This document shows positions 15,031 to 57,441 of a stretch of 64,000 bases of DNA, piece by piece. Within the stretch, counting starts at the first letter, position 1; the number at the start of each line of letters is the position of its first letter. The stretch is from Mesostigma viride (lineage: Eukaryota; Streptophyta; Mesostigmatophyceae; Mesostigmatales; Mesostigmataceae), in the NCBI GenBank assembly GCA_009746045.1, contig RPFO01000041.1:6323323-6387322 (forward strand), in the 5' to 3' direction. The position numbers and the translations under genes were made by a program. The notes under the pieces were generated by a model. That model saw only the letters and a list, made by a program, of their open reading frames with translations. It had not been told where the DNA came from and did no database searches.

Positions 15031-15180
15031 AATGCAATATCGATTCGGGTAATTAGCACCCATCCTGCGAGCATCCATGCAATTACCACCCATCCTGCGA
15101 ACATTCACGTGCAATCCATGCATGCAGACACCGCCATCCATTCGATGCAAGCATTCACGTTTCCATGCAGCCACCCATCC

Positions 15181-20466: not shown

Positions 20467-20470
20467 TCTT

Positions 20471-29638: not shown

Positions 29639-30463
29639 CTAGTGTTCGCGCCACAAAGCAAACTTGAGAGGATCTTGACAGTCCAGGACAAGTTGCTCCC
29701 ACGTCACAGGGCTATCCGCCGCCAGTGAGTGTGAGTGGAGTCCGAAGCTGCGCGGGTGCCAATCCTGAGGCTGAATGATGGACTGGACGAGCGGCGGTGT
29801 GGAAAACGCCGCCATCGGTAAGCGCCGCACGACGCCGGGCTGCCCTACCACCACCCCCAATGGAGCGTGGTACTCGCCAAGCGGGATGCTGCCCACCCCC
29901 GCGACCGACAGCAAGTCAGTGGACACTGAGAACCCCGGGTATGATACGAAAGGTTCGCCCAGCAAGGCCACATCCTCGTAGCCATCCACGACGTGCAACG
30001 GCGTGCCAATGCCCAACACCGGCAGCACCACCATCCTGGTAACTTGATATGCCGAAGTGCCTGCAAAGTCGGTCACCGATTTGTACGGCAACTCTAGCAC
30101 TGGATACAGGGTGGCCGCCCGACGAGAGATAATAGACACGGATGCTTGCGTGTCCACAGCCACCAGCTGCCACGGTCTACACGTAGGAAACAAGGCTGAC
30201 TCAACCGGCCTGACCCCCTGTGAGAGAGTTTTGACCTGAGCCACCCCTGATGCACCTTTCGCTTTAAGCGCCTGAGCACGCCACAAGGCCGTGACCGTTG
30301 AAGCCAGGTCCCTAGGTGGGCGAGGCGCATGGGCAGGACCCTGACCCTCCGGCAAGGCCACGCTAGGCGGGCCTCCCACATTATCCGTGGCTAGCACAGG
30401 AGGTGAGTCACTACGTGCACTAGGTCCCGTCAAACCCACCCCATCCTCATCCCACCCATCCAC
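29639..30463 (-). pseudogene. Retropepsin-like domain of element B, RT lost
   Basis: 275 codons. A linker with LASTVTALWRAQALKAK leads to the retropepsin-like domain: VAVDTQASVSIIS (Asp in a DTQ context), VTDFAGTSAY, VLPVLGIGTP and VALLGEPFVSYPGFSV. After it, HPRSFGLHSHSLAADSPVTW matches the pre-RT region of C, and then the frame stops with the element. Two small indels (near 30575 and at a C-run, 30484-30491) separate it from the integrase frame. The domain would be a protease by fold, but the active-site Gly is replaced. Confidence 0.75.
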
Positions 30464-30559
30464 GGGGTCATATTGGGGCCCAGGGGAGGGGGGGGTGTAG
30501 CTGTGTCTGCCCCTGGGAGCGACCCGTGGGGTACCACCTCAGATGCTACGACAGGCGCA

Positions 30560-32452
30560 TTATCCTTCACTACCCACCCACCCCAGTGCCCTGTTGGCTG
30601 CCAGCTCACTCTCCATGCCATCCCCTTGCGTATGGCCTGCCACCGATGCCCATGGTACCCTATACACCCGATCATTCCACTCTATGTCTATGACCCGCAG
30701 CGGCCAGTCTAACTTTGTGATGGCCCCAGGCCCCTGCATGGTGCCCCGTTTGCCGCTGGGCGAGCTCTCCTTGTGGAGCATGACCAACTGCCCGACCTCA
30801 AAAGCGCTAGACAAATCAGGCAGCGTGGAATCCTTGAGCCGCAGCTTGGCGGCGGTATCCTGTAGATGCTGTTGGTATGCCTCTACTACCTCGGGTGAGT
30901 AGGTGCCCGCTGACAGCCCCCGAGGCGTGACTAGCCCAAAGCCCTTGACATCGAGCACGTGCCTATGATTGCACACATGCATGAGCTCCTTGCACCACGC
31001 CGTCTTGACCGCGTAGGATTTGCCATGTGGGTTATCCTGTCGCTTGGCTGCCACAACAGTCTTGACATAGCTTACAGTGCGATCTATCATGCCCATATTG
31101 CCGTGATCCTCACGCCCCACGATGACCACGGCCTCCATCCCCGGCAAACCTTGCACACAGCGGAACTGCTGGTCTAGCATGAGCTCCACTACGGGATGAA
31201 AGAAAGCCAGGCTGATCTTGATAGCCCTGTGCAGGTCAGCCTCAAACATGTGGGGCAGCGGCTCAATGTAGGTGACCTTGCTGAACCTATCCTTGACTAT
31301 GAAATAGGTGTCCCCCCCTTCCATGTGCATGACATCCCCCACAAGGTACCCTCGCTCCAAGGGTGGAGTCTTGGCATGCCGCCTACGCGACTTCTTCCTG
31401 ATCTTGATGCAGGCAGGACACTGAGCACGCACATTCTTCAGCTCGTTGTATAAAGGTGCCCCCAACATGTGTGCCCCCTCTACCTCGGCTTGGGCCTCAT
31501 GCCCGTATGCACGGTGCATCTGGTATGCTAACAGTTTCAGGGTGACAGCCTGAGGTGCAGTGGCATTGTCAGGATTCTCAACAGGTGGGGTGACTACTGG
31601 GGTAGTGACATTGGCTAACTGGGCAGCTTCAGAGGCTGCACGAAAGGCCGCCCGTGTGAGCACCTTGCCAATGTGAAGATCCACACTAGGGTGGTGTGTA
31701 CCGAGAACATCTGCCCGCCCAGCATTCTCTTGCACTGTCACAACATTCCTCATAGGCCCAACCGCCCCAGTATCTAGCTGGGGTGCTGCAGTAGTGCTTG
31801 GTCGCTCGGCGTTGTACACACCCGACCTAGAAGACACCACATTGCTTAGGTCACGCATTGTAGACCCGTGCTCAGGAAGCACGTGATCCTGGCGCGACAG
31901 AGCCAGAGCAGCATCAACGGATTGCGTGAGCACATCACGGAATGAGACAGAGGATGCAGTCACGTTGCTTTTAGGAACGACGTCAGGCTCTACGACGGCC
32001 CGGTTCAGCGTGACGCATTGAGCAAAAGAAGGGGTATCGAGCGTGCTCTCACCTGACTTTCGTGCTGCCCGTCGCTCTGCCCACTCCTCGCGTGTGCCGT
32101 GGACGACGATGCGCTTGGCCTTGCACGCCTCCACGCTGTGACCACGCAGAACGTCGTGGCACTTCGGGCAAAGGTTGTCCTCGAGCTCCAGGTCCGGGCG
32201 AACTCGGCATTCATCCCGGACATGGCGACGTCCGAAGCAGCGCTCACAGCGTTGCTTGCGGTCAGCAGACGCCCCCTGCTGCCGCTTGGCCGGGGGATTA
32301 TCACCCTGCTTGGCGTCGCCACCATGCCTGCGCTTGCGCCCTCGCTGGCCCCTGTTGTTGCCGTGGCCGACGACGTTTTTCAGGATGGCCGTGAGCTCCG
32401 ACCGCGTAATTGGAGCCTCTGCGCCTGAAGAAGAAGACGCGCCGGTATCCAC
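30560..32452 (-). CDS. Zinc-knuckle plus integrase ORF of element B
   Basis: 631 codons without a stop. Residues 70-110 hold two zinc knuckles, CERCFGRRHVRDEC (CX2CX4HX4C) and CPKCHDVLRGHSVEAC. After a Ser/Thr-rich linker comes the integrase: HRAYGH and CPACIKI (His-His-Cys-Cys), then the catalytic core. Where Asp-Asp-Glu is expected it reads HMEGGDTYF, LMLDQQFR and MIDRTVSYVKT, that is Glu-Asp-Asp. C and D keep Asp, Asp, Glu at these places. The C-terminal module is VGQLVMLHKESSPSGKRG. No protease lies before the integrase. Probably inactive but strikingly open. Confidence 0.8.
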   Translation of the reverse strand: MDTGASSSSGAEAPITRSELTAILKNVVGHGNNRGQRGRKRRHGGDAKQGDNPPAKRQQGASADRKQRCERCFGRRHVRDECRVRPDLELEDNLCPKCHDVLRGHSVEACKAKRIVVHGTREEWAERRAARKSGESTLDTPSFAQCVTLNRAVVEPDVVPKSNVTASSVSFRDVLTQSVDAALALSRQDHVLPEHGSTMRDLSNVVSSRSGVYNAERPSTTAAPQLDTGAVGPMRNVVTVQENAGRADVLGTHHPSVDLHIGKVLTRAAFRAASEAAQLANVTTPVVTPPVENPDNATAPQAVTLKLLAYQMHRAYGHEAQAEVEGAHMLGAPLYNELKNVRAQCPACIKIRKKSRRRHAKTPPLERGYLVGDVMHMEGGDTYFIVKDRFSKVTYIEPLPHMFEADLHRAIKISLAFFHPVVELMLDQQFRCVQGLPGMEAVVIVGREDHGNMGMIDRTVSYVKTVVAAKRQDNPHGKSYAVKTAWCKELMHVCNHRHVLDVKGFGLVTPRGLSAGTYSPEVVEAYQQHLQDTAAKLRLKDSTLPDLSSAFEVGQLVMLHKESSPSGKRGTMQGPGAITKLDWPLRVIDIEWNDRVYRVPWASVAGHTQGDGMESELAANRALGWVGSEG

Positions 32453-32637
32453 CTCATTACAATTCGTTCAAGTGGCCCGCCGGAGCGGCTGTACAATTTT
32501 TCCCAGTGAGCGCGCTGCCAAGTGTACTTGTGGGCAAATTTTTAGGTGCTCCGTCACTTCGAGGTACTAAAAATTAGGCTACGGTACGAATTCAGCGAAT
32601 TTCAGCGAATTTTCAGTCGAACCAAAGGAAGTGACGC

Positions 32638-35661: not shown

Positions 35662-35850
35662 ATTTGCGCAGCAACTCGTCAGCAGAGCTTGTGAGCTCCT
35701 GGTCCTTGCCGGCTGGAATGACCCTAGGCTGCTGGCTAGCAACCTTTATCCTCACACCAGGCCTACGACCCTCGATAGGCTCGCCACTCGTCGTGACGAC
35801 CAAGGTTCGTGTGTGAAGACGCTCGTTGCCTCGTTGAGCCTCGAGCTATA
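35662..35850 (-). repeat. 3' LTR of D, distal part
   Basis: 189 bp starting ATTTGCGCAGC and ending CTATA, identical by eye to 57442-57630. The rest of this LTR lies at 50018-50492, beyond element C. Confidence 0.9.
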
Positions 35851-36547
35851 AGTTAACGTTTTTATGAACGCAATATGTAAGGATATGGTTGCAATGCAGC
35901 AATGTGTGAATATGGTTGGAAACGGAGCTTTGTTAAATTTATAGGCTTACAGCACTCGTGCACGTGAGTGCTTGTACACGAGTTTGCCAAGTCAAGGCAA
36001 CACACGTGAGGCGGGCTCGCAAGAGATCTGCCCAAATGGCACTGGCCTATTCTTTATATACTTGTGCACTGTGCTTGCTAGTCCTGAGCAGCCCAGAAGG
36101 CCTGCTCAGTAATAACACTCCCGGTACAGTATTCACTACCTGTACAGCGCCCAGTTCCTATACAGTAGGTCTGCTATACAGGCACAGTGACCACAGAGCA
36201 CAGTCCACAGTGACTATTGCATCTGCACCTAGAAGTCCAGGACTAAGCCTGCGGTACCAACAGACCACAGGTTAAGGTTCCTATTTCCTGCGTACGACGT
36301 ATTAATCCAATACCGTCGTAGGTACAGCACCTAATTCCTGTCAGCCCAGGAATTACTGTCGACCCCATATGTCGTCGGCAAATATTCACGTCCGACTTAG
36401 AAGAACAGCCGGCTCGCGCTCGCGCGCGACCGGGAAGTCGGAACGCCATAACTTTCTTGATACTTGTCGGAATGAACTCGTTCCGGTGCCGCTGGAATCG
36501 CAGAGATATGCCGAATCAGGATCACGCCAATGCGCTTGGCGTTAACT
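35851..36547 (-). repeat. 3' LTR of element C
   Basis: 697 bp, paired with 49315-50012. Next to it on the internal side is a minus-strand purine tract, AAAAGAAAGGATTGG, the presumed plus-strand primer. Confidence 0.93.
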
Positions 36548-37294
36548 CCAATCCTTTCTTTTCTTGAGCTGTAGCAGCTCACACAAGTCTACATACAAAC
36601 ACACACAATGGGTACTGGACATCCTCCCCGACTACAAGTCACAACCCGCTGGGCATGACAGTCAGCTTGGATTCCTTATTATATGTACATAGCACCCATA
36701 CTGGCTCAGGAGCACAAACAAATTACAATGAGTCCCTATCCCTTCACGGGAGGCTCGTTGTGTTACCCATGTACAAGAGGTTGGCCAACTGTGGCAGCCC
36801 ATAGGTGTTCAGCTAAGAACTTGAGAAGTATGTACAACCTTCAGGACCTTAGGCGAAACCCCACAGATCACCCACAACAGCTCATCAGAAAACATTGCTG
36901 ACCCCCAGACGGGAGTCGGCGCCGGTCTGCTGCCCCTTATCGAACCAGACACAACATCTACGCGAAGCACATGCAAAACACAAGCTCCTATACTCGTTCC
37001 AACCGTGGAAAATCAGGGGACCTGTCGCCACCTCACCAGCATGGTGGATGGGTCAGCCAGTCCGTGAAACTCCGCCTTAAGACGGCACCAGGGAATCGAA
37101 CCCCGCCCACAAACCACAGATCTGGGGAAACCTCAGACTGAGATGAAAACCCCAGATAGACATCTCTCCATCAGAGACAATGTCAGACATTCCCACACCA
37201 GAGACATGTCTCACCCCTCAAGGTGTGCTCAGGATTATGTACAATCAAGCTCCCAGCCTGATATCCAGAGACTTAAGCACCCAGCTCTCAGCTT
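36548..37294 (-). other. 3' untranslated region of C with tRNA-like T arm
   Basis: Between pol stop and 3' LTR. On minus near 37090-37112, CGGGGTTCGATTCCCTG forms a perfect T-stem/loop and matches the pol III B box. A second TGGTTCGATAAGG lies near 36940. No full tRNA can be recognised. Element D has a similar motif in the same place. Confidence 0.5.
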
Positions 37295-40200
37295 TTAGAC
37301 AGATAGACCGACTTGACAGTCAGCATTCATGAGCTTCCTCAGTACATTGTACTGGGCTGGGGCCTTGTGTGGCAGCTTTGTCAATGCATCAGCAGGGTTC
37401 TCCTCGCCAGGGATATGCTTCAAGTCAACCAAACTGGCCAACTCCTTCAGCAACAAATAATCCAGGTCCCGGCTTCTGGCCAGCTGCTTGTGAACAAACT
37501 GGACCATACCCATGCTGTCTGTTAGCAACAACGTCTCCATCTGCAAGGTCCAAGGGGTAACTGAAGCCAGCTCCAGCATTAACTCCTTTATGTACAGGCT
37601 GGACTGGATCCCCTCGCATATGGCCCTGCATTCTGCCACATCTGAACTGATACAGACCCTCTTCTGCAGTCTGCTGTACCAGCTGAACAAACTTGCCCTG
37701 CTCTGATAAAAAGCAAACAGAGCAGCAGATCTCCCCCTGACCTTGGTAACCTGGCGAGCATCCATGGAACTGTCAACAAAGATCTCCAAGGTGATAGGCT
37801 GGGCAAAGTCAATCCCAGACAAAATCAGATCAGGGGTACTCTCCACCAACCGGGCTATGACTCGAGGCTTCTCATCCTCAAGCACCTCATCAGGCATTCT
37901 GCTATGGACCATCAAAGACGGACCACAGATGCTGGCAAACCAGGCCCACATGCCTCTCAACTCAGGTCCTGCAGCCTGGGTGATCTTCTCTGGCAAGGCC
38001 TTCACAATGGTCTGTTTATAATCTCCTCCAGCCTGAAGCCTGATACTCCACTCCCCGTCCCTCCTGAACAGGGTAGCCTGCATTCCACAGAACACTACAG
38101 GCTTGTTGGGCTCCTGCCACAGCTCCTTGCCCAGTGAAAACTTGCCACTGATGACAGGAATAAACTTCTTCAGCCAGGTCGTGGGGGCTAGCAAATGCAG
38201 ATCATCTCCATGCAAACTAGCATACACTGGCAGACCCTCCCATTGGGCCAGCAGCAAACAGGGATCAACTGAAGACACTCTCAAGCCACACTCACTGATC
38301 AGAGCTTCCTGCAGCGTGAGTCTCCAGATGATTGGGCTCGACCTGAGTCCTTCCAGGCCCTTCAGAATAACCAGGAATTGTTGATGCAGCTCCAGCTTCC
38401 AGATGGCAGGCACCTCAACACAGTAAGGCTCATCCTGCTTCCACACCCTCCTGGCCACTTCTGGATCAGATTTTAAAAATGCCCTCTTGAAGTCCAGCAG
38501 CACTGATGACATAGCTGCTCCCCTGTTCAGCAACCCCACGTAGAGACATAGCAAAATTCTCCATGTGTCGTGTAGCATCCCTGGCGTGTACAGCTCCTCT
38601 CCTGGCAGACTCCCCGTGCCGTGATACTCATTCAGGACAGGCCTGACATGGGGCACTGATACCTCATCCACAACCTTCCTCTTCAGCACAAATCTCAAAG
38701 CAAGCTTCCTTGATGCTGGGGGACGTCTGTCTGTTGGTGCAGCACACTCAAACTGCAACCACTCCTCCAATGCCTTGGAGAAGGCGAGCTTCCAAGCCTC
38801 AAACAAAGTAGGCGAGCTCATCTCTTGGACCAGCTGGTCATATGTCAAAGGAGAGTGTGCAGCAAGGCTCCTGTGAGTTATGCCAATACTGCTGGGGTGC
38901 AACACAGCTGGAATCACCAAACTGGCCGCTGGGGGCACCTCCCCTTCATCCCATTTTACACCCTTGACCGGCTTGGCCCTGCACCTGACTGGAAATGTTG
39001 TCCTGAAATTTTCTAGGGGAATCATCCCCCAGCCATCTCTTCTCAGAGCTGTAGCTCTGATAGAAATCCCAGGATTGCCCAGAAAATTCTGACCCAAAAT
39101 CACAGGGCCATCATAGTCCTCTAGGACAAGGAAGGTCACATCCACACCCATGACAGGGGCAGTAACCTCTCCCAACACCCTTAGATGCGTCCTACCACTG
39201 AAATCAGACACCCAGGGGCAACTTGGTTCTCCGACCAGCAGTTCTCCTGTATGCTGAGGTCCCATGACAGAAACCTGTGCATTGGTATCTATCTCCATGG
39301 CAGCTACCTCAGGTTCATCCAACTGGACAAGCTTGGACACCTTAGGCTCCTTCTTGGCTCTTTGCAAAGCCTGTACAATATCTGATAGACGCACACCCCT
39401 AGGCCTGGTGTCGGGCCGTTCCGGAGGTGCAGCCTGTCCGCCTGCTTGCCCAACCACCGTATGTGAAGGTACCCCAGGGGCCGGGCCAGGGTCACCCTGA
39501 GGGCTCGATACAGCTGTAGCACCCTGATCAGGAAGCTCCACGTCACCCCCGCCTTGTACACCAGCGGGCACCTGGAAGAGGTCTCCTTGATTACCTCCCC
39601 GGGGACGGATCTTTGACCAGGACAGACGGTGCACTGCTTGGGAGCCATCAATGGCCACCCAGCACTTATGGCCAGCGGCTTCTACTCGGGTCACCACCCC
39701 ATCATGCCAGCTGCCACGTTTCCCTGGAAAGCTTGGTTCCTTCCACACAACAACCTGTTGTCCAACGTTAGGTTCTAGGACACTCCAGCCCTTGTCTTTC
39801 TGCCTCAGCTTGAGGAACTTGGCCTCTAGCTTCTCCTTCCATGCCTGCTCAGCATCAGCTGGCAGCATCCTGGTATGCAGCATAAGAGGATTGATGGCAA
39901 TGTCACCAAAGAACATGGGAGTCCTCAGGTTCAGCCTATCCTCCACAGAACGTAGCCATGCAGATGTCACAATGGCAGATGACGTCCTTGGAATCCTCTC
40001 CACCAGCAGCACAGTCTTGATCTCTTGGATGGCTCTCTCCACCACCCCTTGCTGGCCGTGGCTCTCCCTGGGTGTAATCAGCAACTCTGGAAACTCTGGC
40101 AGGTTCTCACAGCACTCAAACTGAATGTCACACTGCAACAACTCCAACCCAGGGTACCTGCTCCTTGTCAACTTCAGAGCAGCAATCAATGTAGGCTTCT

Positions 40201-40852
40201 CCATGTCAGGCAGGATCTCTAGGGTCTTGTACTTGGTATATCTGTCCACTGCCACCAGCAGCTTCAAACCCCTGATTCTCTGAATATCTACCTGCACATG
40301 GCCTGGCTGCAAAATAGGAGTCCTGGCATGAGACTGCTTGGGCTTTCTAGCAACTAGCCTGCACTTGCAAGCTTGAGCAACCTGTTGGCAGATGGAGTAC
40401 AACTCACTTCCTCCCAGCCGTCTAGCAACTTGCAAAGACTGAGCTGCATGGCCAAACATGGTATGCAACCTTGAGGCAATGTCATACAAGAGAGAAAATC
40501 TTTTATTGTCATTATTAGCACTCAAGGTATGTACAGATCCCTTATGTACAGGAGGCACCAGGGTCGTGCCTGTCAGACTGTCTCCAGCCCTATCCTCATC
40601 CTGACCATCCTGTGCCAGTCCTGCACGGTCAGAATGCTTCTGAGATCCACCTGGGTCCACATCACCAGGTCCTACCTCAGGCTCAGCACCGCCATGGCGG
40701 GCACGTTGGCGAGTAACCACTGCAGCTACAGCTGGCATACTCTCTGTGGTAACCAAGCTTGCCCCATCGTGTCCAATAGGCTCTTTCACTAGAGCATGGG
40801 GCTGCCCCTCACTGCCGTCACTAGCAGCTACATTACACACCCCTGGGGGCAC
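37295..40852 (-). CDS. pol: Pol polyprotein of C: integrase, retropepsin-like, RT, RNase H in that order
   Basis: A single 1185-residue frame. Residues 1-115 are a linker without a protease. Integrase: LHTMFGH (H130, H135) and Cys at 155, 162, 164, then catalytic HVQVDIQ (D189), LQCDIQFE (D242) and GVVERAIQEIK (E272), with 29 residues between D242 and E272 instead of 35. C-terminal module around 365-415. Retropepsin-like domain 515-605: MEIDTNAQVSVM (D522), DFSGRTHL, GEVTAPVMGVDVTF, PVILGQNFL. RT 690-1000: LLDFKRAFLKSD (D787), LYTPGML, SLHGDDLHLL (HGDD 881-884). RNase H near the end: FVDSSMDARQ, SSDVAECRAI, LTDSMGMVQF, EENPADALTKL. The start is a non-ATG codon in the frame after gag, so translation probably depends on frameshifting. 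Confidence 0.93.
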   Translation of the reverse strand: MPPGVCNVAASDGSEGQPHALVKEPIGHDGASLVTTESMPAVAAVVTRQRARHGGAEPEVGPGDVDPGGSQKHSDRAGLAQDGQDEDRAGDSLTGTTLVPPVHKGSVHTLSANNDNKRFSLLYDIASRLHTMFGHAAQSLQVARRLGGSELYSICQQVAQACKCRLVARKPKQSHARTPILQPGHVQVDIQRIRGLKLLVAVDRYTKYKTLEILPDMEKPTLIAALKLTRSRYPGLELLQCDIQFECCENLPEFPELLITPRESHGQQGVVERAIQEIKTVLLVERIPRTSSAIVTSAWLRSVEDRLNLRTPMFFGDIAINPLMLHTRMLPADAEQAWKEKLEAKFLKLRQKDKGWSVLEPNVGQQVVVWKEPSFPGKRGSWHDGVVTRVEAAGHKCWVAIDGSQAVHRLSWSKIRPRGGNQGDLFQVPAGVQGGGDVELPDQGATAVSSPQGDPGPAPGVPSHTVVGQAGGQAAPPERPDTRPRGVRLSDIVQALQRAKKEPKVSKLVQLDEPEVAAMEIDTNAQVSVMGPQHTGELLVGEPSCPWVSDFSGRTHLRVLGEVTAPVMGVDVTFLVLEDYDGPVILGQNFLGNPGISIRATALRRDGWGMIPLENFRTTFPVRCRAKPVKGVKWDEGEVPPAASLVIPAVLHPSSIGITHRSLAAHSPLTYDQLVQEMSSPTLFEAWKLAFSKALEEWLQFECAAPTDRRPPASRKLALRFVLKRKVVDEVSVPHVRPVLNEYHGTGSLPGEELYTPGMLHDTWRILLCLYVGLLNRGAAMSSVLLDFKRAFLKSDPEVARRVWKQDEPYCVEVPAIWKLELHQQFLVILKGLEGLRSSPIIWRLTLQEALISECGLRVSSVDPCLLLAQWEGLPVYASLHGDDLHLLAPTTWLKKFIPVISGKFSLGKELWQEPNKPVVFCGMQATLFRRDGEWSIRLQAGGDYKQTIVKALPEKITQAAGPELRGMWAWFASICGPSLMVHSRMPDEVLEDEKPRVIARLVESTPDLILSGIDFAQPITLEIFVDSSMDARQVTKVRGRSAALFAFYQSRASLFSWYSRLQKRVCISSDVAECRAICEGIQSSLYIKELMLELASVTPWTLQMETLLLTDSMGMVQFVHKQLARSRDLDYLLLKELASLVDLKHIPGEENPADALTKLPHKAPAQYNVLRKLMNADCQVGLSV

Positions 40853-40885
40853 CCTCCAGGGTTCAGGGATGTGTGCAGGCTCAAG

Positions 40886-41872
40886 TCAATGATCAGCAGC
40901 CTTGCCCTTGCCCTTATCCTGGGATGGACCAGCCTTGTCCTTGCTGCCACCCTGAGCTGGCTTGCTCTGACCTTCCTGCCTCAGGTACGAGGGACACTCA
41001 TTCCTGAAGTGACCCTTCCCTGGCAGAAATAACATTCCACCTGACTGATGTCCCGTGAGGTCCCACTGCTGGGCCCAGCCTTGGGAGGACCACCCACCCT
41101 CTTGAAGTCAAACTGGGACTGTGGATGCCCCGACTTCGGCGGTGTCCCCCGTCCAGCCCTTCTGTCACGCCCCCTCCTGGACCTTCCTCGACCCCTTGAA
41201 GAGGTCTCAGGCCCTCTCGAGGACGCTGGGCCCCCGTGGCCCGATCCCCTCATGGACTTAACCGCAGGTTCAGCTGCCTCCTCGTCCCCTTGACGTGGGC
41301 GCTTACCACCTACGTACTTGCCGCTGAAACACTCATACAACTGGTCCGTCATGGCTGCCCAGCCATGGACCTGTCGCATGTGGATGGTCACATTATCCAT
41401 GGTGACCGGATCCAGCTGCAGCGACTTGAGAAAGTCGCCCATGGCCATCCGATCTGCAACGAAGAATCCTTTGGCCATGGCGTCCTCCCTCACGCTTGAC
41501 GAAGTCTTCAAAGGCGTGGACCACTAGCTGCCCCTTGATGGGCTTGTAGTCCAGGTACTCTTGCTTCAGGTGAGACCCATCTATGGTCCTCTTGTCACTC
41601 AGGAACGCCTTGAGTCGCGTCATAAACGCAGTCCAGGTGTCCCCCGCCGTGTGCCGCTCCCGGACAAACTTGAACAGCCGCCTCGCCGACTGCCTTATGT
41701 AGGCACTAGACGCCAGGATGCGAAGCTTGTCACCGGTGTAGATGTCCGTGTACAAGTTCATGTCCTCTAACATCCTCTCAGCGTCCCGGGGCTGCCAATT
41801 GTCCTTGATGGACTGAAACTGGCCTAGCACCGCGTACCCCTCAGCCACGGTCGGCCGCCTAGGTGCCGCTTG
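40886..41872 (-). pseudogene. gag: Gag of element C, C-terminal part
   Basis: Resumes after the E insertion: PRRPTVAEGYAVLGQFQSI, DIYTGDKLRILASSAY, DTWTAFMTRLKAFLSD, then a frameshift near 41490 into MAKGFFVADRMAMGDFLKSL and an Arg/Gly-rich tail. The zinc knuckle begins CYFCQG; another frameshift splits it, and the frame from there gives a CCHC pattern and ends GKAADH at 40886. With 48196-47991 it forms a gag of about 390 residues. Confidence 0.75.
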
Positions 41873-42616
41873 TGTTGAAAGAACTAATGGGTTTGCCTTC
41901 TACAATGCTTGTGATTGAAACCCAAATGTGCCTGTCCTTGCAGGTACAGGCTATGGAGGATGGGAGCAAAGAGACAGAGACTCAGTTTGAGGCAGAATGA
42001 TAGTGAGGAGTACCTTTGGCAAGGCTCCTCAGTTGTTTTATTAACTCGAGGAAAAAACACAGGCAGAAAACTGGAATGACCTGATTGGCTGGCTAGGAAT
42101 GTGCCTAGGAATATTCTCATGTAATACTCAGGCCACCAATCAGGTTAGGTCAGTGTACAGGCTACCAATCAGACCTAGACAAGAATAAATCTTATCTTGT
42201 AACTGCTGTACAGCCTTATCTTGTAACTGATGTACAGTCTTAACTTGTAACTGCTGCACAGTAATCTAACTATTTAATAAAAGATCTCTCTATGTGTGAT
42301 CTGATGATGATGAAGTAAATCTGGCGTGAACATATCAGCGCCACATCTGACATGCACAGTGTACATGTCAATCAGTCAGCTGTCCTGTCATAGATTCTCA
42401 TCTGACATGTCATAGGTCAGCTGACATAGACAGATTTGTCAGCTGCCTATAAGGATCCACTTGGCATAGGTACTAATCCCTGATTACTAAAACTGGCCAC
42501 AACTTTCTCATTTGTAGGCCAAATCCAACGGGATAAAAACAGTGGCTCCTGTACAAGAGCCTCTATCTATCTAGCCAGGTCAGGTGGGTACAAATACAAG
42601 GACCATGTCCTTGACA
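41873..42616 (-). repeat. 3' LTR of element E
   Basis: 744 bp, TGTTGAAAG...CCTTGACA. On the internal side, minus-strand AAGGGGGG is the polypurine tract. Confidence 0.96.
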
Positions 42617-42717
42617 CCCCCCTTACAACACATGACCTTGCTCTAGTGCTATCCTGTCAAGTATAACACTTAGAGCAAAAAAGCTCTCAGCCCCTGTGGG
42701 CATATACAACTGCATAT

Positions 42718-45700
42718 CTAAGTAGACACCAGCAGCTTGTCCCGCAGGGTGATGAACCGTGCCCTTCCCAGGGCCTTGGTGAAGATGTCAGCCAGGTTGT
42801 CCTTGCCAGGGCAGTGACGCATGCAGATGGAGCCCCCCTCCACCTGCTCACGGATGAAGTGGTAGCGCACGTCGATGTGCTTGGTGCGCTTGGGGTGCAC
42901 AGGGTCCTTGGCCAGGGCCACCGCGCCAGTGTTGTCGCACAGCACGGTCGTGGGCCCCTCCACAGGTGCACCCAGGTCTCCCAGCAGGCGCCTGAGTGGC
43001 AGCACCAGCTGGGTGACGCTGCTCGCAGCAATGTACTCTGCCTCGCAGGAAGACAGAGCAACAATGGGTTGCTTGCGGCTGCACCACTCCACGGGCGCAC
43101 CCCGGAACAGGACCAGGTTGCCCGTCACAGAGCGTCTGGACTCTGGGCAGTTAGCCCAGTCAGCGTCAGTCCAGGCCTCCAGCCCCCCTTCCTGACCATA
43201 CCGCAGACCCTTGTCCCTCGTGGTGTAGAGGTACCGGATCAGGCGGTCGGCAGCCTCCATGTGGGCCGCCGTGGGTGCCTGCATGTGCTGGGCCAGTTGG
43301 TTGACAGCAAAAGCAATGTCTGGACGTGTCCACAGCGCGACATACAGCACGGCACCGGTTTTGGACTGATACAGCTGGGTGTCCGGGGCATTTAGCTGCA
43401 TTCCCCCCTCGCGTTGGGGACTAACACGGGACACACTGACCGGGGTGCGTACAGGGAAGGAGGGAGAAAGCCCAAAGCGGGCAGCCAGGGCCTCAATATA
43501 CACAGTTTGGTGCAAGGAAAGAGACCGGGAAACAGGGTCGACATGGAGAGAAACACCGAGGAAAAAAGAAGGGTCATCGGACTCGGTGATCTGAAACTTG
43601 CTGGCCAAACGATGAGACCACGAGGCCAGCCAGGAAGAGGAAGGACTGCCTGCAATAATGTCGTCGACATGGACAAACACAAACGTACGAGACGTGGGAT
43701 ACACGTACAGGCAGGAATCCGTTGGGCTTTGTACAGCACCATCGGAGAGAAGATAGGCACTAAATGTTTTGTGCCAGTTACGTGGTGCCTGCTTGATGCC
43801 ATAGAGGCTGCGTTGCAGCTTCCACACCAGCACATCACCAGCGGCATCACGCTGCTCAAAGCCAGCAGGAGGACGCACATAGACGTCCTCAGAAAGTGGG
43901 GCGTACAAAAACGCAGTGCGAACATCAAGTTGCTTCAGCACATACCCAGACGAGACACCAAAAGCTAGTGCCAAACGAATGGTGGAGGAACGAACAGTAG
44001 GGCTAAAGACCTCAGTGAAATCTATGCCTTCCCGCTGAGCAAAGCCCTTCACAACAAAACGGGCCTTGAAACGGCCATCGCTTTTGACAGCAAACACCCA
44101 CCGAGATGGAAGGACCTTGGCAGTGCGAGGAAGAGACTTGGAAGAAACGAGTGAATATACTGCATGTTCGCGAATGCTAGAAAGCTCACTATCCATCGCA
44201 GCACGCCACTCAGGGCTAGCATGGGCCTCAGCAAAAGAGGAGGGGATGGACGTGGAACCTGAGCTAGTGTGGAGTGAGAAAGTATCAAACAGATCACGCA
44301 CACTCATGTAGTCAGGGTAAAAACGAGCCCATTTAGGGGAAACACGATCAAGAGGGGTTGTGGGTAACACCTGAGCGAGGGGATCATGTGCAACGCCGTC
44401 GGACACCAGTGCAGCAGTGGCCATAGCGGCAGCCGGTTGCTTGCCGCGGAGGGCCTGCACTAATTTGTGTAGCTGGGACGAAGAAGGAGATTCAGCAGCA
44501 GGTGTGTCTGCCGTCGACACGTGTCCAGGTGGTGTAGAGGTAGAAGCCGACGACGCCTCCAGCGCAGGACTTGGTGCGAAAACAGGTGCAGACTCAGACT
44601 CAGCGGGTTTGGGCTCAGGACTTGGCGCTGGCGCCTCCTCCAGTGGCGAGCCCCCCTCACCACTGGCATCCCCCGACAAAGCCTCCAGTGGCGAGCCCCC
44701 CTCACCACTGGCATCCCCCAAAGCAGTGCCCCCACTGCTGGCAGCGCCCACAGCAGCGTCCTCACTGCTGGCAGCGGCGCGCCGCGCCATGGCTCTAGTC
44801 ACAGGACCAGAGGGCGGTAGGGCCAGAGTAGTATCAGGCCCAGGGACAGAATTCTCAGTGACCGGTGGCAGCAGAAGCTCGGAAGCCTCCTCCCCCTCCA
44901 CCAGTGCCGGCAGCAGCTGAGGTGATGGCAGGGCGTCGTTGCGCCAGGCCTCATTGAAGGCCACGTGGCGACGTTGCACCAAAGTGCGAGTGGCGGAGTC
45001 CAGGATCAGATATGCCGGCGAGTCGGGAGCATAACCGACAAAAATGCCAGGCATGGCCTTGGCCTCCAGCTTGCCACGATGCCCTTCCACACGATGCCAG
45101 GCTGGGCAGCCGAAAATGCGCATGTGCGACAGATCAGCGTGATGACCTGTCAGCAAAAAGTGTGGCGTGGCATCACCAGGATTCGAGGAGCACGGCAGGC
45201 GGTTCAGGATATAAATAGCACACTGGAGTGCCAATGCCCAGTATGCCTTCCCCAGGCCGGCGTGTGTCAACATCGCCAGAGTCATGCCCATTGCCAGGCC
45301 CCAGAGCCGCTCCGCTACGCCGTTCTGCTCAGGGCAGTAAGGCGCGGAGAACTCCTGGTGGACGCGGTGTTCAGCACACACCGCCCGCCAGGCTTGACCG
45401 GTGAAGACCGCGTCGTTGTCGGTGCGCAGCACGACAGAGCCGGCGTAGAAGGGGCGAATATCGCGGACGAGCAGCTCTGCAAACCGCCCCACCGCCTCGT
45501 CCTTGGTCTTGAGCGCAAACCCCCATCGCCACCGAGTGGCATCGTCAGTGATGCCCAAGAAGTAGCGGGCTCCCCCCAGCGACTCGACGCTCATCGGGCC
45601 CAGCAGGTCGCCATGAAGCTTGGCGCGCGGCACAGTGGATCGCCGCTGCCCTGGCGGAAATGGCTGGCGCTTGATGAAGCCAGCCGGGCAGGATGGGCAG

Positions 45701-46257
45701 CCAGGAGCAGTTGGACTCCTCGTCGTCAAGTTGGATGCAGGGATGGCAACCAGCTTCTTGATGCGGTCGGCACCAGCATGGCCCAAACGCCAGTGCAGCA
45801 GCAGGTTAACCGGCCGCTCCACCGTCACAGCAGCCATCGCTGGCGCTGCCTTCGCCGCAGGTAACACGTAGATGTTGTTCTGCATGGCGATCTTGTGATG
45901 CTTGTTATCCAGCACCACTGTCTCTTTGTGGAAATCCACCTTGTGACCTGCCTTTGCGAGTTGCGCGACTGAAAGGAGTCGTGCATTCAGGCCAGGTACA
46001 AGCAGCGCTCCTTGCAAGCGCACGCTGTGGCCAGGAAGCTCCACAGCGATGGTGCCCTGGCCGGTAGCGTGCAGCTGTCCGCCGGAGCCAGCGATTGCCC
46101 TGCTGTGGGGGGTCAGAGACACAAAGTCAGAACGGCACGGGGACATGTGGCTGCTCGCAGCCGAGTCCAGCACCCAGGTGAGGTTGTCGCACGTATACTG
46201 CGTGAGAGCAGCAGCCTCCAGCGGCGTCGACGGCGACTCCTCGGCGATGGTGACCAT
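42718..46257 (-). CDS. pol: Copia Pol polyprotein of element E (PR-INT-RT-RNase H)
   Basis: 1179 uninterrupted residues. Protease at 28-95: WVLDSAASSHM (D31; Ala replaces the usual Gly in DSG). Integrase: H155, H160, C187, C190, then LHGDLLGP (D217), RTDNDAVF (D280) and NGVAERLWG (E316), with the canonical 35-residue spacing. A Pro/Ser-rich linker (450-600) carries a tandem duplication of DASGEGGSPLE near 515-540. RT 680-900: RWVFAVKSDGRFKARFV, QLDVRTAFLYA (first Asp), LYGIKQAPRNWHK, FVHVDDIIAG (HVDD 863-866). RNase H: AWTDADWANC, SSCEAEYIA, LCDNTGAVAL, KDNLADIFTKAL. All domains are complete, so it may encode active enzymes. It is reached from gag by a likely -1 shift at a six-G run. Confidence 0.95.
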   Translation of the reverse strand: MVTIAEESPSTPLEAAALTQYTCDNLTWVLDSAASSHMSPCRSDFVSLTPHSRAIAGSGGQLHATGQGTIAVELPGHSVRLQGALLVPGLNARLLSVAQLAKAGHKVDFHKETVVLDNKHHKIAMQNNIYVLPAAKAAPAMAAVTVERPVNLLLHWRLGHAGADRIKKLVAIPASNLTTRSPTAPGCPSCPAGFIKRQPFPPGQRRSTVPRAKLHGDLLGPMSVESLGGARYFLGITDDATRWRWGFALKTKDEAVGRFAELLVRDIRPFYAGSVVLRTDNDAVFTGQAWRAVCAEHRVHQEFSAPYCPEQNGVAERLWGLAMGMTLAMLTHAGLGKAYWALALQCAIYILNRLPCSSNPGDATPHFLLTGHHADLSHMRIFGCPAWHRVEGHRGKLEAKAMPGIFVGYAPDSPAYLILDSATRTLVQRRHVAFNEAWRNDALPSPQLLPALVEGEEASELLLPPVTENSVPGPDTTLALPPSGPVTRAMARRAAASSEDAAVGAASSGGTALGDASGEGGSPLEALSGDASGEGGSPLEEAPAPSPEPKPAESESAPVFAPSPALEASSASTSTPPGHVSTADTPAAESPSSSQLHKLVQALRGKQPAAAMATAALVSDGVAHDPLAQVLPTTPLDRVSPKWARFYPDYMSVRDLFDTFSLHTSSGSTSIPSSFAEAHASPEWRAAMDSELSSIREHAVYSLVSSKSLPRTAKVLPSRWVFAVKSDGRFKARFVVKGFAQREGIDFTEVFSPTVRSSTIRLALAFGVSSGYVLKQLDVRTAFLYAPLSEDVYVRPPAGFEQRDAAGDVLVWKLQRSLYGIKQAPRNWHKTFSAYLLSDGAVQSPTDSCLYVYPTSRTFVFVHVDDIIAGSPSSSWLASWSHRLASKFQITESDDPSFFLGVSLHVDPVSRSLSLHQTVYIEALAARFGLSPSFPVRTPVSVSRVSPQREGGMQLNAPDTQLYQSKTGAVLYVALWTRPDIAFAVNQLAQHMQAPTAAHMEAADRLIRYLYTTRDKGLRYGQEGGLEAWTDADWANCPESRRSVTGNLVLFRGAPVEWCSRKQPIVALSSCEAEYIAASSVTQLVLPLRRLLGDLGAPVEGPTTVLCDNTGAVALAKDPVHPKRTKHIDVRYHFIREQVEGGSICMRHCPGKDNLADIFTKALGRARFITLRDKLLVST

Positions 46258-46360
46258 GCAGAAGCCAGGCGGCAGTTCAGCCGCCTCCTGAGTTGCGTTG
46301 GCAGCGGATCCAGCAGGTGCGTTGCGTCCCTTGTTCTGGTTCCCTCGGTTGCCGCCCTTG

Positions 46361-47155
46361 CCCCCCTGTGCTGGTTGGGGTACCAGCGTGGGGCCTTCTC
46401 AGGATGCTCCTTCCAGCAGTCTTTGTCCTTGTGATTTGACAGGCCACAGTGACTGCATTTCTTGGTCCCCCCGTTCCCCTTGCTGTTGGTGTGGTAGGCC
46501 TGGCCAGTGCCAGCACTCTCCTTTTTCACCACAGCACGTCCCCCCTTGAGCAGATCCTCCGCCTCCATGAGTGCCCTCTTCACCACAGGTAGTGGGTCCT
46601 CCTCGTTGAACCGTACAGACACCAGCGCAGGGCGGTACTCGTCTGTCAGTGCTCCCAGTAGAATGGCAGCAAAATCACGGTCCTGGATGACTCCCCCTGC
46701 AGCCTGGTAGTCAGCACGTAGAAGCTCCGCCCTCCTCACAAGCTGTTGCATGGTCTCGTTAGGAAGCTTCTGTAGGCGGTGCAGCTTGCTCCTCAGCTCA
46801 AACCTGTGACTCTTGGTTAGCCTGGTTTGCTCATAGTTCTCCATGAGACACTGCCATGCTTGGCTACCAGTTTTGTTGGCCACAGTGGCCATTAGGCGTG
46901 CAGCTTCACCTGTTAGACAGGTGAGCAAAGCTGCCCACAGGGCCTTATCAGCCCTGTCATTCTCCTCAGTACCCAGCAGGACAGCATCCAAACTGAAAAG
47001 ACTGACAACAGCCAAAAACAATTCTTCCACTCCTCCCACTTGCTGTAATCATCACCAGCTGCACCAACAAATTTCTTGCAGCTCTTGGCAACTGTTGAAA
47101 CAAGAGAGGTGTAGTCAGGCTGTCTGGTAGCAGTTTGGGTGTCTTGATCCTCCAT
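46361..47155 (-). pseudogene. gag: Gag of element E, one frameshift
   Basis: Starts at ATG 47155 (MEDQDTQTATRQPDY), 80 bases after the primer site. The capsid is the UBN2/retrotransposon-gag type: CLTGEAARLMATVANKT, QAWQCLMENYEQTRL, RFELRSKLHRLQKL, ETMQQLVRRAELL, then ALMEAEDLLKGGR and the knuckle CSHCGLSNHKDKDC. An indel at an A-run (47014-47018) breaks the frame after KWEEWKN. At the six-G run (C-run 46361-46366 on plus) a -1 shift leads into the frame that opens pol. It would package E RNA if the single indel were absent. Confidence 0.85.
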
Positions 47156-47234
47156 GGTTGATCTGGGTCTGGGTGTTGTCTCTGGGGTAGTCAGATGAAT
47201 GTCTCTGCTCCTCAAATGCAGGGTAGGCATCAAA

Positions 47235-47246
47235 CCTCCGATACCA
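47235..47246 (-). promoter_or_regulatory. tRNA-iMet primer-binding site of element E
   Basis: Minus-strand TGGTATCGGAGG directly inside the 5' LTR; it would pair with the 3' end of initiator methionine tRNA to start minus-strand synthesis. Confidence 0.9.
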
Positions 47247-47990
47247 TGTTGAAAGAACTAATGGGTTTGCCTTCTACAATGCTTGTGATTGAAACCCAAA
47301 TGTGCCTGTCCTTGCAGGTACAGGCTATGGAGGATGGAGCAAAGAGACAGAGACTCAGTTTGAGGCAGAATGATAGTGAGGAGTACCTTTGGCAAGGCTC
47401 CTCAGTTGTTTTATTAACTCGAGGAAAAAACACAGGCAGAAAACTGGAATGACCTGATTGGCTGGCTAGGAATGTGCCTAGGAATATTCTCATGTAATAC
47501 TCAGGCCACCAATCAGGTTAGGTCAGTGTACAGGCTACCAATCAGATCTAGACAAGAATAAATCTTATCTTGTAACTGCTGTACAGCCTTATCTTGTAAC
47601 TGATGTACAGTCTTAACTTGTAACTGCTGCACAGTAATCTAACTATTTAATAAAAGATCTCTCTATGTGTGATCTGATGATGATGAAGTAAATCTGGCGT
47701 GAACATATCAGCGCCACATCTGACATGCACAGTGTACATGTCAATCAGTCAGCTGTCCTGTCATAGATTCTCATCTGACATGTCATAGGTCAGCTGACAT
47801 AGACAGATTTGTCAGCTGCCTATAAGGATCCACTTGGCATAGGTACTAATCCCTGATTACTAAAACTGGCCACAACTTTCTCATTTGTAGGCCAAATCCA
47901 ACGGGATAAAGAACAGTGGCTCCTGTACAAGAGCCTCTATCTATCTAGCCAGGTCAGGTGGGTACAAATACAAGGACCATGTCCTTGACA
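47247..47990 (-). repeat. 5' LTR of element E
   Basis: 744 bp, near-identical to 41873-42616 (an extra G, one C/T and one A/G-type difference noticed). Should carry the promoter; no TATA assignment attempted. Confidence 0.96.
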
Positions 47991-48196
47991 GCTTGATCTG
48001 CAGCTGGCGCGTTCTGACCGCCCTGAGATCCTTGGCTCTGATCATCTGCCAGCGCAGCCTGGTCTCCCAGCGCCTGGCCGTCACCGCGTCCATCACGTCC
48101 ATCGCGTCCATCGCGTCCATCGTGTCCATCCATCCCAGCGCCGCGCTGTGCAAAGCCCATAACGCGCGCTTGTTGGTCAATAGCTCCTTCACTCAT
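47991..48196 (-). pseudogene. gag: Gag of element C, N-terminal part
   Basis: Starts at ATG 48196 (MSEGAIDQQARVMG). Asp-Gly-Arg repeats (HDGRDGRDGRDGRG) at residues 24-37 come from a CGTCCATCG-like triplet expansion. It ends at the GCTTG target site of E, beyond which the same frame resumes at 41872, so gag was open when E inserted. Confidence 0.8.
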
Positions 48197-48378
48197 GATG
48201 GCCTCTGTTCAGATCTGCTACAGCAAGCCAAGTGGCCGAGCAGCAATTAAAGCAATATAAGCTACTGAACAAGAAAGGAAAATGCCAAGTGTTACCACTC
48301 AGGCAAGACCACCACGGTCACCCGCAGGGGCTTCCTGGTTCTCCTTGTCGCTGTCACTGTCGCTGTCGCTCACAACGA

Positions 48379-49218
48379 TCAGCTCTGGCACCCTGCTACC
48401 CGCTGCGCCGTCGTCGACCCGCTGTCGGCCCGCGATGACAGAGTCGCACCGTTGGTGTAGTAGACAGGTGACAACCCGTCGTTGGCACCCCTCGGATTGT
48501 ATCTTGGCACCTCGTGGTCGCCAAGCGCCTCGTCGCCTAGCCCAGCGACGCCCACTGCTCCCACCTCAAGGTCACTATCGTAACCAAGAGGGGCGAACTC
48601 TTCCCAACGCGTCACACGAACGCGAAGGGGTTGGGGCAGTTCCTGAAAAGGAACCCTTGCTCACTCCGGAATCCTGCGGACTCGTGCCGCACGCTGTCCT
48701 CCGTTGATGGCTTCCGCAGCCGCCTCGACCTCTGCCAGCCGCCGGTAGCGCTCCGCCCCGCGTCGCTCACGTCGAACTGGTCCCGCTGCAACACCCTCGT
48801 CGCCGATTACGCCTGCGAAAGTACGTTGTACACCCGCACCCGCTGCTGCCGGCACGTACTCGTGTCGCACTGCACCAGCTGCCTCTGCAGCCTCTCCTCG
48901 CCTAGCCGCCAACTCCGCACGCACCCGCTCAGCTAATGCTGTAATCACCGTCTGGATACCGACCAAACCGTGCAGCTCTTGCTCGATGTCGTCGATGCTC
49001 CGGTGCTCCGGAATGACGATGGTTTGGACGTGCCGCAGAATTCGCTCCCAATCCTCGACCTGGTCGTTGACGAATTGCACAAAGTTGCGATTAACAGGTG
49101 GACGATCTGCAAGCAATAAAGATAAATCTCGAACGACACGACGCAATTCAGGCGAAATTGAACCACCAGCAGACTGCCAAAACCGGAAATTCTGCTGCCG
49201 TTGTTCTTCCTGCACCAT
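48379..49218 (-). pseudogene. Accessory ORF of element C between 5' LTR and gag
   Basis: ATG 49218 (MVQEEQRQQNFRFWQ) begins a 185-codon frame to 48661: SPELRRVVRDLSLLLADRP, NDQVEDWERILRHVQTIVI, SIDDIEQELHGLVGIQTVI, then Ala/Arg/Glu-rich helices. A further frame (TRWEEFAPLGYDSDLEVG..., 48615-48379) may continue it after an indel. It lies about 95 bases inside the 5' LTR. D and G carry different-looking but similarly placed ORFs. Not part of canonical Copia elements; function unknown. It could be a divergent gag segment. Confidence 0.55.
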
Positions 49219-49314
49219 TCACCACCGGACGAGCTTCTCGCGTCGTCAATTACGCTGCACGCAGCAAACAGCAACGACCCTCCTGGCCGTTCCGTTGAGA
49301 CTGCTTGTAATTTG

Positions 49315-50012
49315 AGTTAACGTTTTTATGAACGCAATATGTAAGGATATGGTTGCAATGCAGCAATGTGTGAATATGGTTGGAAACGGAGCTTTGTTAA
49401 ATTGTATAGGCTTACAGCACTCGTGCACGTGAGTGCTTGTACACGAGTTTGCCAAGTCAAGGCAACACACGTGAGGCGGGCTCGCAAGAGATCTGCCCAA
49501 ATGGCACTGGCCTATTCTTTATATACTTGTGCACTGTGCTTGCTAGTCCTGAGCAGCCCAGAAGGCCTGCTCAGTAATAACACTCCCGGTACAGTATTCA
49601 CTACCTGTACAGTGCCCAGTTCCTATACAGTAGGTCTGCTATACAGGCACAGTGACCACAGAGCACAGTCCACAGTGACTATTGCATCTGCACCTAGAAG
49701 TCCAGGACTAAGCCTGTGGTACCAACAGACCACAGGTTAAGGTTCCTATTTCCTGCGTACGACGTATTAATCCAATACCGTCGTAGGTTCAGCACCTAAT
49801 TCCTGTCAGCCCAGGAATTACTGTCGACCCCATATGTCGTCGGCAAATATTCACGTCCGACTTAGACGAACAGCCGGCTCGCGCTCGCGCGCGACCGGGA
49901 AGTCGGAACGCCATAACTTTCTTGATACTTGTCGGAATGAACTCGTTCCGGTGCCGCTGGAATCGCAGAGATATGCCGAATCAGGTACACGCCAATGCGC
50001 TTGGCGTTAACT
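49315..50012 (-). repeat. 5' LTR of element C
   Basis: 698 bp with AGTTAACG/CGTTAACT ends. CTATA duplication follows at 50013-50017, after which D's LTR resumes. Confidence 0.93.
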
Positions 50013-50017
50013 CTATA

Positions 50018-50492
50018 TGCAACCTCGTTCCATCCTTGTTCCTCGGTCATGAGCAACGCTGGGCAACGCTACATTGCCAGAGCCTCGTATCGCTGCCCTG
50101 CATCCTCGTTGCAGGCAGCATACAGGAATCTCTGGCTATCCTGTGTCTAGGACTGCACAGGACCTGCCACAGTCCTGCATGGACTTACATCCTTAATTGC
50201 AGACCTGCTGGCTGGCTACTGGCTTCTACTAGCCACAGGACCGTTGAGCCCTCAGTACACTGTGTCCCAGTCACGTGAGAGTTCAGGCTAAGCCTGTGCA
50301 GGCACGGCCTGCCACGTGTCCTGTCCACTATGCCCTGAGAGTGCACCGCCCTTGCCCACCGGTCGGCAGTACTTCGGGACCTGATATCTTTCTAGTCCCT
50401 TTCCCTTGTCTGTTCTAGGCGGTTGACACGGCGTTGGAAAGGTCTCCTCAACCTGCATCCATCTAGCACATTGGTGCCCCAATATGCTAACT
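50018..50492 (-). repeat. 3' LTR of D, proximal part
   Basis: 475 bp, continuing the LTR interrupted by C. Compared with 57631-58089 it has a 10-base insertion near 50190, a small indel near 50400 and two or three substitutions. A purine tract, AAGAAAGGGTTGG on minus, lies on its internal side. Confidence 0.92.
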
Positions 50493-51410
50493 CCAACCCT
50501 TTCTTGTTTTGGAGCTTGGACCAGCCTGAGAACCTATCAGCCACTGTCCCCACAAGCCTTCAGACATCTGATCCCTCCCAGAGATCAGACCTGCCTTTTC
50601 TTTTGGAACCTGAGGTGCCTCCAAATATTAGCTAGGCCTGCTCATTGGTTCAAAGGTTGCCCTCTGACCCACATGACATCCCAACCCTTTCTTTGGGAAC
50701 CTGGTGTAGATTAAAGTTAGGTCTTCACTTAGTCAGAGGAGTTTGGATAGAGGAGTCCATGAACGTACTATTGTGAGTTCCTGGTCATCCAGTTATCACA
50801 GGCGCCCGTTCATATGGCGCCCGCCACGGAGCCTCCTTTATCTTTTAAATCCTTCCAAAGACTGAGAGAGCCCTGACAAATGTTAGCCAACACATGGGGA
50901 GCCCATGTCCTCACTGAGGGATAAACTCAGAATTCACACATGCCAGGCTGAGGTCAGCTGGGGAAATCGAACCCCACCCCATATCCTCCAGGTTTGGATC
51001 TGCTCCTGGAACTGAGCATCACAAACAACATAACATGACAATAACAAGATTATGTTTTATTATAAAGAAGTATAACCCATAGTGAGGCCCCTGGCAACCA
51101 CGTCCAACATGGTCACACAACCAGGGATTTTATTAGCATGCAACAGGTTGGTTACAGAGAATATATACAAATGTACAGCAACCTGTTAGAGCCAACACTT
51201 GGGCTGCCCTTGCAGGGTCCATTCCATGAAGACCCAAGGCCCATTACAAAGTCCTTAAGACTCTTCTGCAGCCCCATGACAGAGCCAGGCGAAATTCTCA
51301 GCCAGGGGAGTGACTCCACCCTGACCCCTGTCCAGCAGAGTGTGTCTGAACTCTGAAGGACCTGCTGTCAGCCACCACGTGGCTGCCCAGCCCACTGGGA
51401 TGCCTCCCAC
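50493..51410 (-). other. 3' untranslated region of element D
   Basis: No gene. On minus near 50960, GGGGTTCGATTTCCCC resembles a tRNA T arm, as in C. AT-rich stretches near 51050-51070 could supply a polyadenylation signal. Confidence 0.5.
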
Positions 51411-52060
51411 CTAGAGCAAGGCTGTTTGGTCTACTCTGGCCCTCCCCCCCTTGGAGGCCATGAGCCCACGAAGCAAAGGGTATTGCAGCTCAGCCTTTTC
51501 CTCCAGCTTGGTGAGAGCATCTGCAGGGTTGTCCACGCCAGCCACATGTTCAATGTTAGCTAAGCAAGACATTTCCTTGAGCAACAAATAATCAAGGTCC
51601 CTGCTCCTGGCCAGCTGCCTGTGCACAAACTGCACCATGCCCATGCTGTCAGTTCTTACCAGTGTGTGCATCTGCAACCGACAGGAAGCCACTTGACTTA
51701 GCTGGTAAAATAGCTCCCTCAAGTAAAGAGCAGTATGAAGCCCTTCACAGATTGCCCTGCACTCAGCAATGTCACTGCTGGGAGTTACCCTGTTTTGGGG
51801 GAGAGAGTTACCCAGCATGAGAGGGGGAGACATGCGAACAGCCTCTACCACTCTCTCAGCACCCACCTCAACCAGTTGGGAATCGGTCAACCGACTCAGT
51901 ACCAACAGGTCAGGAGCACAAATGCTGGCCAGCCATGCCAACATACCTCGTATTGTTGCACATCTGGCCTGGGTGATGGGCTCCTGCAAGGCATCTATGA
52001 TCTGCTGGGGATAATCCTTACCACCCTCCAGCTGATGGACCATGTACCCTGCTGATGGAC
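51411..52060 (-). pseudogene. RT end and RNase H of element D, internally deleted
   Basis: The frame shifts from the RT ORF near 52050. MLAWLASICAPDLLVLSR is the connection region. Then LMLGNSLPQ joins directly to TPSSDIAECRAICEG, whereas C has about 50 residues in between, including the first catalytic Asp (FVDSSMDARQ) and LFSWYSRLQ. The remaining RNase H has AECRA, RTDSMGMVQFV and GVDNPADALTKL. The deletion removes a catalytic residue, so the enzyme is dead. Confidence 0.8.
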
Positions 52061-54879: not shown

Positions 54880-54884
54880 TCAAG

Positions 54885-55993: not shown

Positions 55994-56441
55994 CTTGGCC
56001 CTCCCCCGTCAGCACCACGCCGTCGGTTGGCCACCCTGCACGCTCCTCCCCTTGTGCCACCTCTTTCCTCTTCCGGTTGGATGCCCTCCTGCCATTGACG
56101 CCCTCTGCCGTTGGGATTGCCTGTCCCTCTGGCACGACGTTGGCGGGGCCTCCCGTGTCTGCCCTTGCCTCACCACCGCCATCCCCCGCTCCGCCCCGCT
56201 CCCGCTGCCGCTCCCGCGCGTGTTACGAAGCATTATAAATACTACAGACAACACACGCAGATATGGCTGCTGGAACCCACTCAGGCTCACGCACTTACTC
56301 CAGACGAGGCCGCCTCCTGGCTTGCACTCGCCTGCCCCTCCTCACGGTCTGGACGCTGCTCAACACCCTCAGCAACCGGTATGGCTGCTGCTGCCGCTGC
56401 GACAATCTGGAGGTCTGGGTTAAACTCTCCCAGCACGCAGG

Positions 56442-57416: not shown

Positions 57417-57441
57417 GAAAGCGCTTGGAAGCAATAGTACG

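Follow-up and report, generated by a model that had tools for sequence, protein, structure and literature searches.

Element C and the domain order of its pol frame

We analysed a 64,000-nucleotide window of the Mesostigma viride genome (assembly GCA_009746045.1, contig RPFO01000041.1, positions 6,323,323 to 6,387,322) that holds several retroelements, here called A to E, and focus on element C, whose pol frame departs from the usual domain order. On the reverse strand this frame extends from stop to stop over 37295..40885 (1196 amino acids) and is open from a GTG over 37295-40852 (1185 codons); residues are numbered from position 40852. It reads, in order and all on the minus strand, an integrase (INT; residues 120-420, 39593..40495), a retropepsin-like domain (PR; residues 515-615, 39008..39310), a Copia-type reverse transcriptase (RT; residues 640-930, 38063..38935) and an RNase H (RH; residues about 1016-1160, 37373..37807). 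INT is recognised by its HHCC (H130, H135, C162, C164) and D189-D242-E272 motifs; its fold evidence rests on a low-confidence predicted model, and its C-terminus, judged by eye, carries a GPY/F-like module. PR is recognised by D522-T-N-A-Q-V-S-V-M (D522 codon at 39287-39289) and I585-L-G together with profile and fold, RT by LHGDD (residues 880-884) and RH by D1027, E1074 and D1112, the latter two also by profile alignment. The INT-PR-RT-RH order in a single frame, first proposed in a sequence-only reading of the window, is confirmed: all 39 scored copies of C are open over 1185/1185 residues and P0001, an ENA protein of 1214 amino acids, is 62% identical to C along the whole polyprotein, so the order is not due to chance. 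It is very probable that the frame is the pol of an LTR (long terminal repeat) retrotransposon in which a predicted retropepsin-like domain, likely its own protease, lies between INT and a Copia-type RT with RNase H.

Pfam finds no family above its cut-off in any of the four pol sequences (C, D, A and P0001). Below the cut-off RVT_2 matches A (E 2.2e-5), D (7.1e-4) and P0001 (0.014), with no match in C pol, and RVT_1, Pol_BBD and SH3_retrovirus match none of the four. The weak matches of P0001 follow the INT-PR-RT order, with rve at 214-265 (E 0.15), gag-asp_proteas at 557-628 (0.086) and RVT_2 at 751-923 (0.014). Element E does have the standard Copia order that had been ascribed to it, as Pfam finds Pol_BBD (28-104), rve (210-309), SH3_retrovirus (370-437) and RVT_2 (700-940) in sequence. 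When a profile of C, P0001, D and A was aligned with E using hhalign, the RT (96.5%, 7.1e-10) and RNase H (80.3%, 1.6e-6) of E matched, and its INT and PR, each represented by one sequence, gave no match to the four-row profile. The label 'Copia-like' is therefore backed for the RT and RNase H of C alone.

The predicted model of the domain between INT and RT has the retropepsin (clan AA) fold, and its best fold and profile matches are Ddi1 and gag-asp_proteas, in agreement with its original designation as retropepsin-like. Sequence searches of solved structures with the PR profile and with the whole pol matched no protease, integrase or RT. The active-site triplet of retropepsins is D-S/T-G; here D-T-N or D-T-Q takes its place in 5/5 sequences. 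This loss of the Gly could mean that the domain keeps the fold and no longer cuts, acting as a structural spacer, for example as an INT/RT dimer contact, with Gag-Pol processed by a host enzyme or left unprocessed. We consider this unlikely, since 5/5 sequences keep both motif residues Asp and Thr as well as the L-G of I/L-L-G, the domain is conserved to the same degree as INT and without gaps among C, P0001 and D, the motif is retained in 30/30 C loci and 20/20 D loci, and no other protease is recognised in C, D or A. The predicted domain probably serves the element as its protease.

It is also conceivable that a diverged second protease occupies the usual place upstream of INT, which would make the INT-RT domain an additional one. 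Candidate triplets do occur, namely DTGA at residues 2 and 227 of the first open reading frame (ORF1) of B, DSGS at residue 66 of D pol, and D-S-G/A triplets in two frames of the C leader (by motif check only). However, a motif search of C gag and of C pol outside the INT-RT domain found no protease motif, and P0001 carries none either. The DSGS of D pol sits in a gapped, non-conserved linker (17-32% identity among C, P0001 and D), and in B the next VLG follows only 22 residues on, too close for the fold, the corresponding spacing in C being 63. Pfam searches to E 10 found no upstream protease in the gag of C, A or D, in the pol of D or A, or in B ORF1. Judged from the sequence, the triplets in D pol, B ORF1 and the C leader would be chance occurrences, and we regard an upstream protease as very improbable. 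The claim that none lies between gag and INT holds for C by motif and, for its gag, by Pfam; for D and B it carries the caveat of the DSGS in D pol and the DTGA in B ORF1, neither of which matches a protease profile.

For the origin of the domain we give about equal weight to relocation of a Copia protease behind INT and to loss of that protease with another retropepsin, of Ddi1/gag-asp type, substituting for it in the INT-RT linker; replacement is the reading to which we lean. Replacement is as open as relocation because the best matches are Ddi1 and gag-asp_proteas and because the profile of the domain gave no hhalign match to the E protease, albeit in a weak test against a single sequence. 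The sequence-only reading had called the protease 'moved', which these comparisons do not demonstrate. Protease swapping is named as a possibility, with insensitive profiles thought likelier, in a passage of PMC3248453.

Copies, families and an outside relative

Copies were scored best candidates first, so that all counts are lower bounds which favour intact pol and under-count broken copies. C has at least 39 genomic copies, D at least 78 (78 scored; frames up to 1205 amino acids) and A at least 83 (83 scored; 76 stop-free in the match and 13 with frames of 1380-1381 amino acids). An intact copy of A (L053, 260-4405) has a single frame of 1381 amino acids with CCHC (155), INT, DTQAQVSVIS (701), RT and RNase H in that order, its gag lying in a different frame that overlaps the CCHC-pol frame. 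Intact frames of D are found elsewhere at 1195 amino acids (L036, in which we read INT-PR-RT-RH) and 1203 amino acids. In the window itself D pol is split into two overlapping frames (51995..54879, minus strand; INT 53296-54879, PR-RT 51995-53656), the listed frame of A (606..2159, plus strand) holds PR and RT and begins only at PR, and B (29639..32467, minus strand) has CCHC and INT (30560-32467) followed by PR (29639-30538) with the frame broken between them. The assertion that A, B and D share the order of C is thus upheld by single intact frames of A and D, and for B extends to INT and PR over two reading frames. In the INT of B (30629-31561) an Asp takes the place of the catalytic Glu found in A, C, D and P0001.

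Two more families, covered here for copy number and frame length, were met via the proteins P0003 and P0005. For P0003, 101 copies were scored and the frames reach 1226 amino acids; for P0005, 147 were scored, many of them with frames of 1179 amino acids. P0003, a EukProt protein, is 100% identical to the genome over 414/414 residues, tail included. The near-identity of copies suggests recent activity, and the C family is high-copy and likely recently active.

P0001 is the only outside witness that we count, its best matches in the Mesostigma genome reaching only 63-64% (38 scored). P0002 (99%) may come from the same host and P0006 covers RT but not INT; neither was counted. P0004 and P0005, listed in EukProt as 'Prorocentrum lima', were rejected as evidence of a second host, cross-contamination of the data set being likelier: of the 315 residues of P0004, 314 are covered by a match to D at 100% identity, and P0005 is 100% identical to genomic copies over 258/258 residues. 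A search with family A, in which 7990 candidates were scored, returned no relative at E 0.001, and a viral contig scan gave 74 pattern matches and no relative.

A misassembly, a nested insertion or recombination in a single copy might also create an unusual order, and the window copy of C is indeed cut by the nested E, in gag. E lies outside pol, however, the one-frame order is common to 39/39 scored C copies and to three families, and it recurs in P0001, a protein whose best scored matches in this genome are only 63-64% identical. An artefact is already refuted on these grounds, leaving it a negligible probability. We consider the multi-copy, multi-family departure from the pol-order rule to be real, its protease being a predicted one.

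Nested insertions and the gag-pol junction

C spans 35851 to 50012 on the minus strand, E insertion included, and its own length is about 8.04 kb (14162 - 6118 - 5). Its 3' LTR (35851..36547, 697 bp) and 5' LTR (49315..50012, 698 bp) are 99.0% identical and run AGTTAAC...GTTAACT, not TG...CA; the polypurine tract AAGAAAAGAAAGG (36553..36565, minus strand) precedes the 3' LTR. Copies of the target site duplication (TSD) TATAG flank C on its 3' (35846..35850) and 5' (50013..50017) sides, and the uninterrupted matching site is present at 57626..57630 in the other LTR of D, which places C within the 3' LTR of D. When the flanks of C are joined, with 4 bases left over from the second TSD copy, they align with the 5' LTR of D (57442-58089) at 96.6%, over 649 bases and 669 columns with 20 gaps. 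D itself, its ends read from the flanks, covers 35662..58089 (minus strand) between GAGTG duplications at 35657-35661 and 58090-58094. E (41873..47990, minus strand; LTRs 41873-42616 and 47247-47990, 99.6% identical with TG...CA ends) is inserted in C gag between CAAGC copies at 41868..41872 and 47991-47995. The region 35662-58089 is a three-deep LTR nest in which each element has a 5-bp target duplication, making D the oldest, C younger and E the youngest.

To either side of E are the 3' part of C gag with its zinc-knuckle region (40889..41872, minus strand) and the 5' leader with the gag start (47991..49314, minus strand). Both E and an indel near 41021 interrupt the gag frame here, the indel disrupting the alignment of this gag with 25/29 other fetched copies; the window copy is therefore not autonomous, its pol frame being open. 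A second full copy (L001 and neighbours) has LTRs of about 698 bp that start AGTTAAC and end GTTAACT, the TSD CTTAC at both sides, and a gag frame of 392 amino acids containing CYFCQGKGHFRNEC; after a single TGA, pol continues in that frame. Pfam matches this gag to zf-CCHC at E 1.4e-4. The gag frame terminated by the TGA stays open for at least 387 codons in 9/30 C loci (L001-L030). Pol is open in every scored copy whereas gag mostly is not, which is partly due to selection by best pol match. The leader before gag holds further open frames of 207 and 177 amino acids in different frames (L051 1155-1983, L001 1-288). Visual inspection also points to a possible intron there, and gag may have a spliced N-terminal part. 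A TGG start after the 5' LTR is absent in C and D, and a primer binding site (PBS) was not recognised, no tRNA set having been compared; ARAGORN found no tRNA in the window.

In the window copy of C the in-frame TGA between gag and pol lies at 40886..40888 (minus strand) and is followed by CTTGAG, an arrangement found at the junction in 30/30 C loci and 18/20 D loci. Gag and pol of both C and D lie in one frame, and TGA CTTGAG is common to the two despite 44% pol identity.

TGA CTTGAG is likely a readthrough signal. A minority of ribosomes would read through UGA-CUU-GAG and produce Gag-Pol, and within the particle two Gag-Pol chains would pair through their retropepsin-like domains, around D522. 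The paired domains could then cleave Gag and both of their own sides, freeing INT on the N-terminal side and RT-RH on the C-terminal side, after which RT-RH would copy the RNA and INT would insert the complementary DNA with a 5-bp stagger.

Elsewhere in the window, in a DIRS-like element (7547-12937), a long frame with no Pfam match is followed by a tyrosine recombinase (PF00589, 9.6e-7); the direct repeats of the element (7547-7927 / 12390-12770 and 12258-12391 / 12804-12937) are 100% identical. LINE-like (long interspersed nuclear element) frames adjoin D at 58020-60840, with RVT_1 (3e-23) at 59128-60840. Positions 19869-20804 hold a long simple repeat coding GREGG/MDGW, and 14440-15169 a tandem array, distinct from it, whose units have diverged.

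The place of C among known elements

C may represent a separate deep lineage. Our tentative wider reading, to which we give somewhat less than an even chance, is that of an unnamed LTR retroelement lineage with its own INT-PR-RT-RH pol, in which a Copia-type RT-RH is combined with an INT not recognisably Copia-type and a D-T-N/Q-A, Ddi1/gag-asp-like retropepsin that would have taken over the processing of Gag-Pol, acting from the INT-RT linker. This lineage would be represented in Mesostigma viride by several families of very high copy number, and in another genome by at least one relative. A high-copy lineage breaking the order would mean that a protease can sit between INT and RT while the element still spreads, raising the questions of whether self-release requires the protease to be first, whether a retropepsin is functional with N or Q for Gly, and whether retroelements exchange proteases. 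Because no C, D, A or P0001 pol passes a Pfam cut-off, annotation tools expecting PR-INT or the Gypsy order may miss the lineage. Mesostigma viride NIES-296 is credited with 60339 LTR elements, 27.9% of the genome, in a passage of PMC6947507; the word Copia is absent from the main-text portions covered of that paper and of the other Mesostigma genome paper, PMC7027972.

Two features distinguish Copia (PR-IN-RT-RH) from Gypsy (PR-RT-RH-IN), one of them being pol organisation, and diatom CoDi elements have the expected order, according to passages of PMC2806351; Troyka has the Gypsy order in a passage of PMC12440569. C, D, A and P0001 follow neither order. INT-PR-RT-RH was likewise not found in the portions seen of the open-licence literature searched, a scope outside which Repbase, GyDB and REXdb lie, consistent with the earlier remark that no such group is known to have been described. 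Ty1/Copia elements have an LTR-flanked internal region of 4 to over 9 kb and a PBS usually complementary to initiator tRNA-Met (PMC8515867). C is like them in its LTRs, 5-bp TSD, size of about 8 kb, RT nearest RVT_2 and INT upstream of RT, and is unlike them in having its protease behind INT and in its LTR ends; its PBS was not recognised. E, in the same host, has an RT and an RNase H that align with those of C, but differs in its PR-INT-RT-RH order, Pol_BBD protease, SH3_retrovirus module and TG...CA LTRs, and its INT and PR show no detectable likeness to those of C.

In Gmr1-like Ty3/Gypsy elements the protease stays first. According to a passage of PMC2774666, the Gypsy lineage Gmr1, with its Copia-like INT position, is an exception already catalogued. 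C resembles it in a pol order that departs from the parent family and, by eye, in the GPY/F-like C-terminus of INT, but has PR between INT and RT, and the RT of its group matches RVT_2 and not RVT_1. Finally, the retropepsin-like domain of C shares with Ddi1 and gag-asp_proteas (clan AA) the predicted fold, the closest solved structures, D-T-x-A and I-L-G, and differs from them in the exchange of the motif Gly for N/Q and in its location inside a retrotransposon pol.
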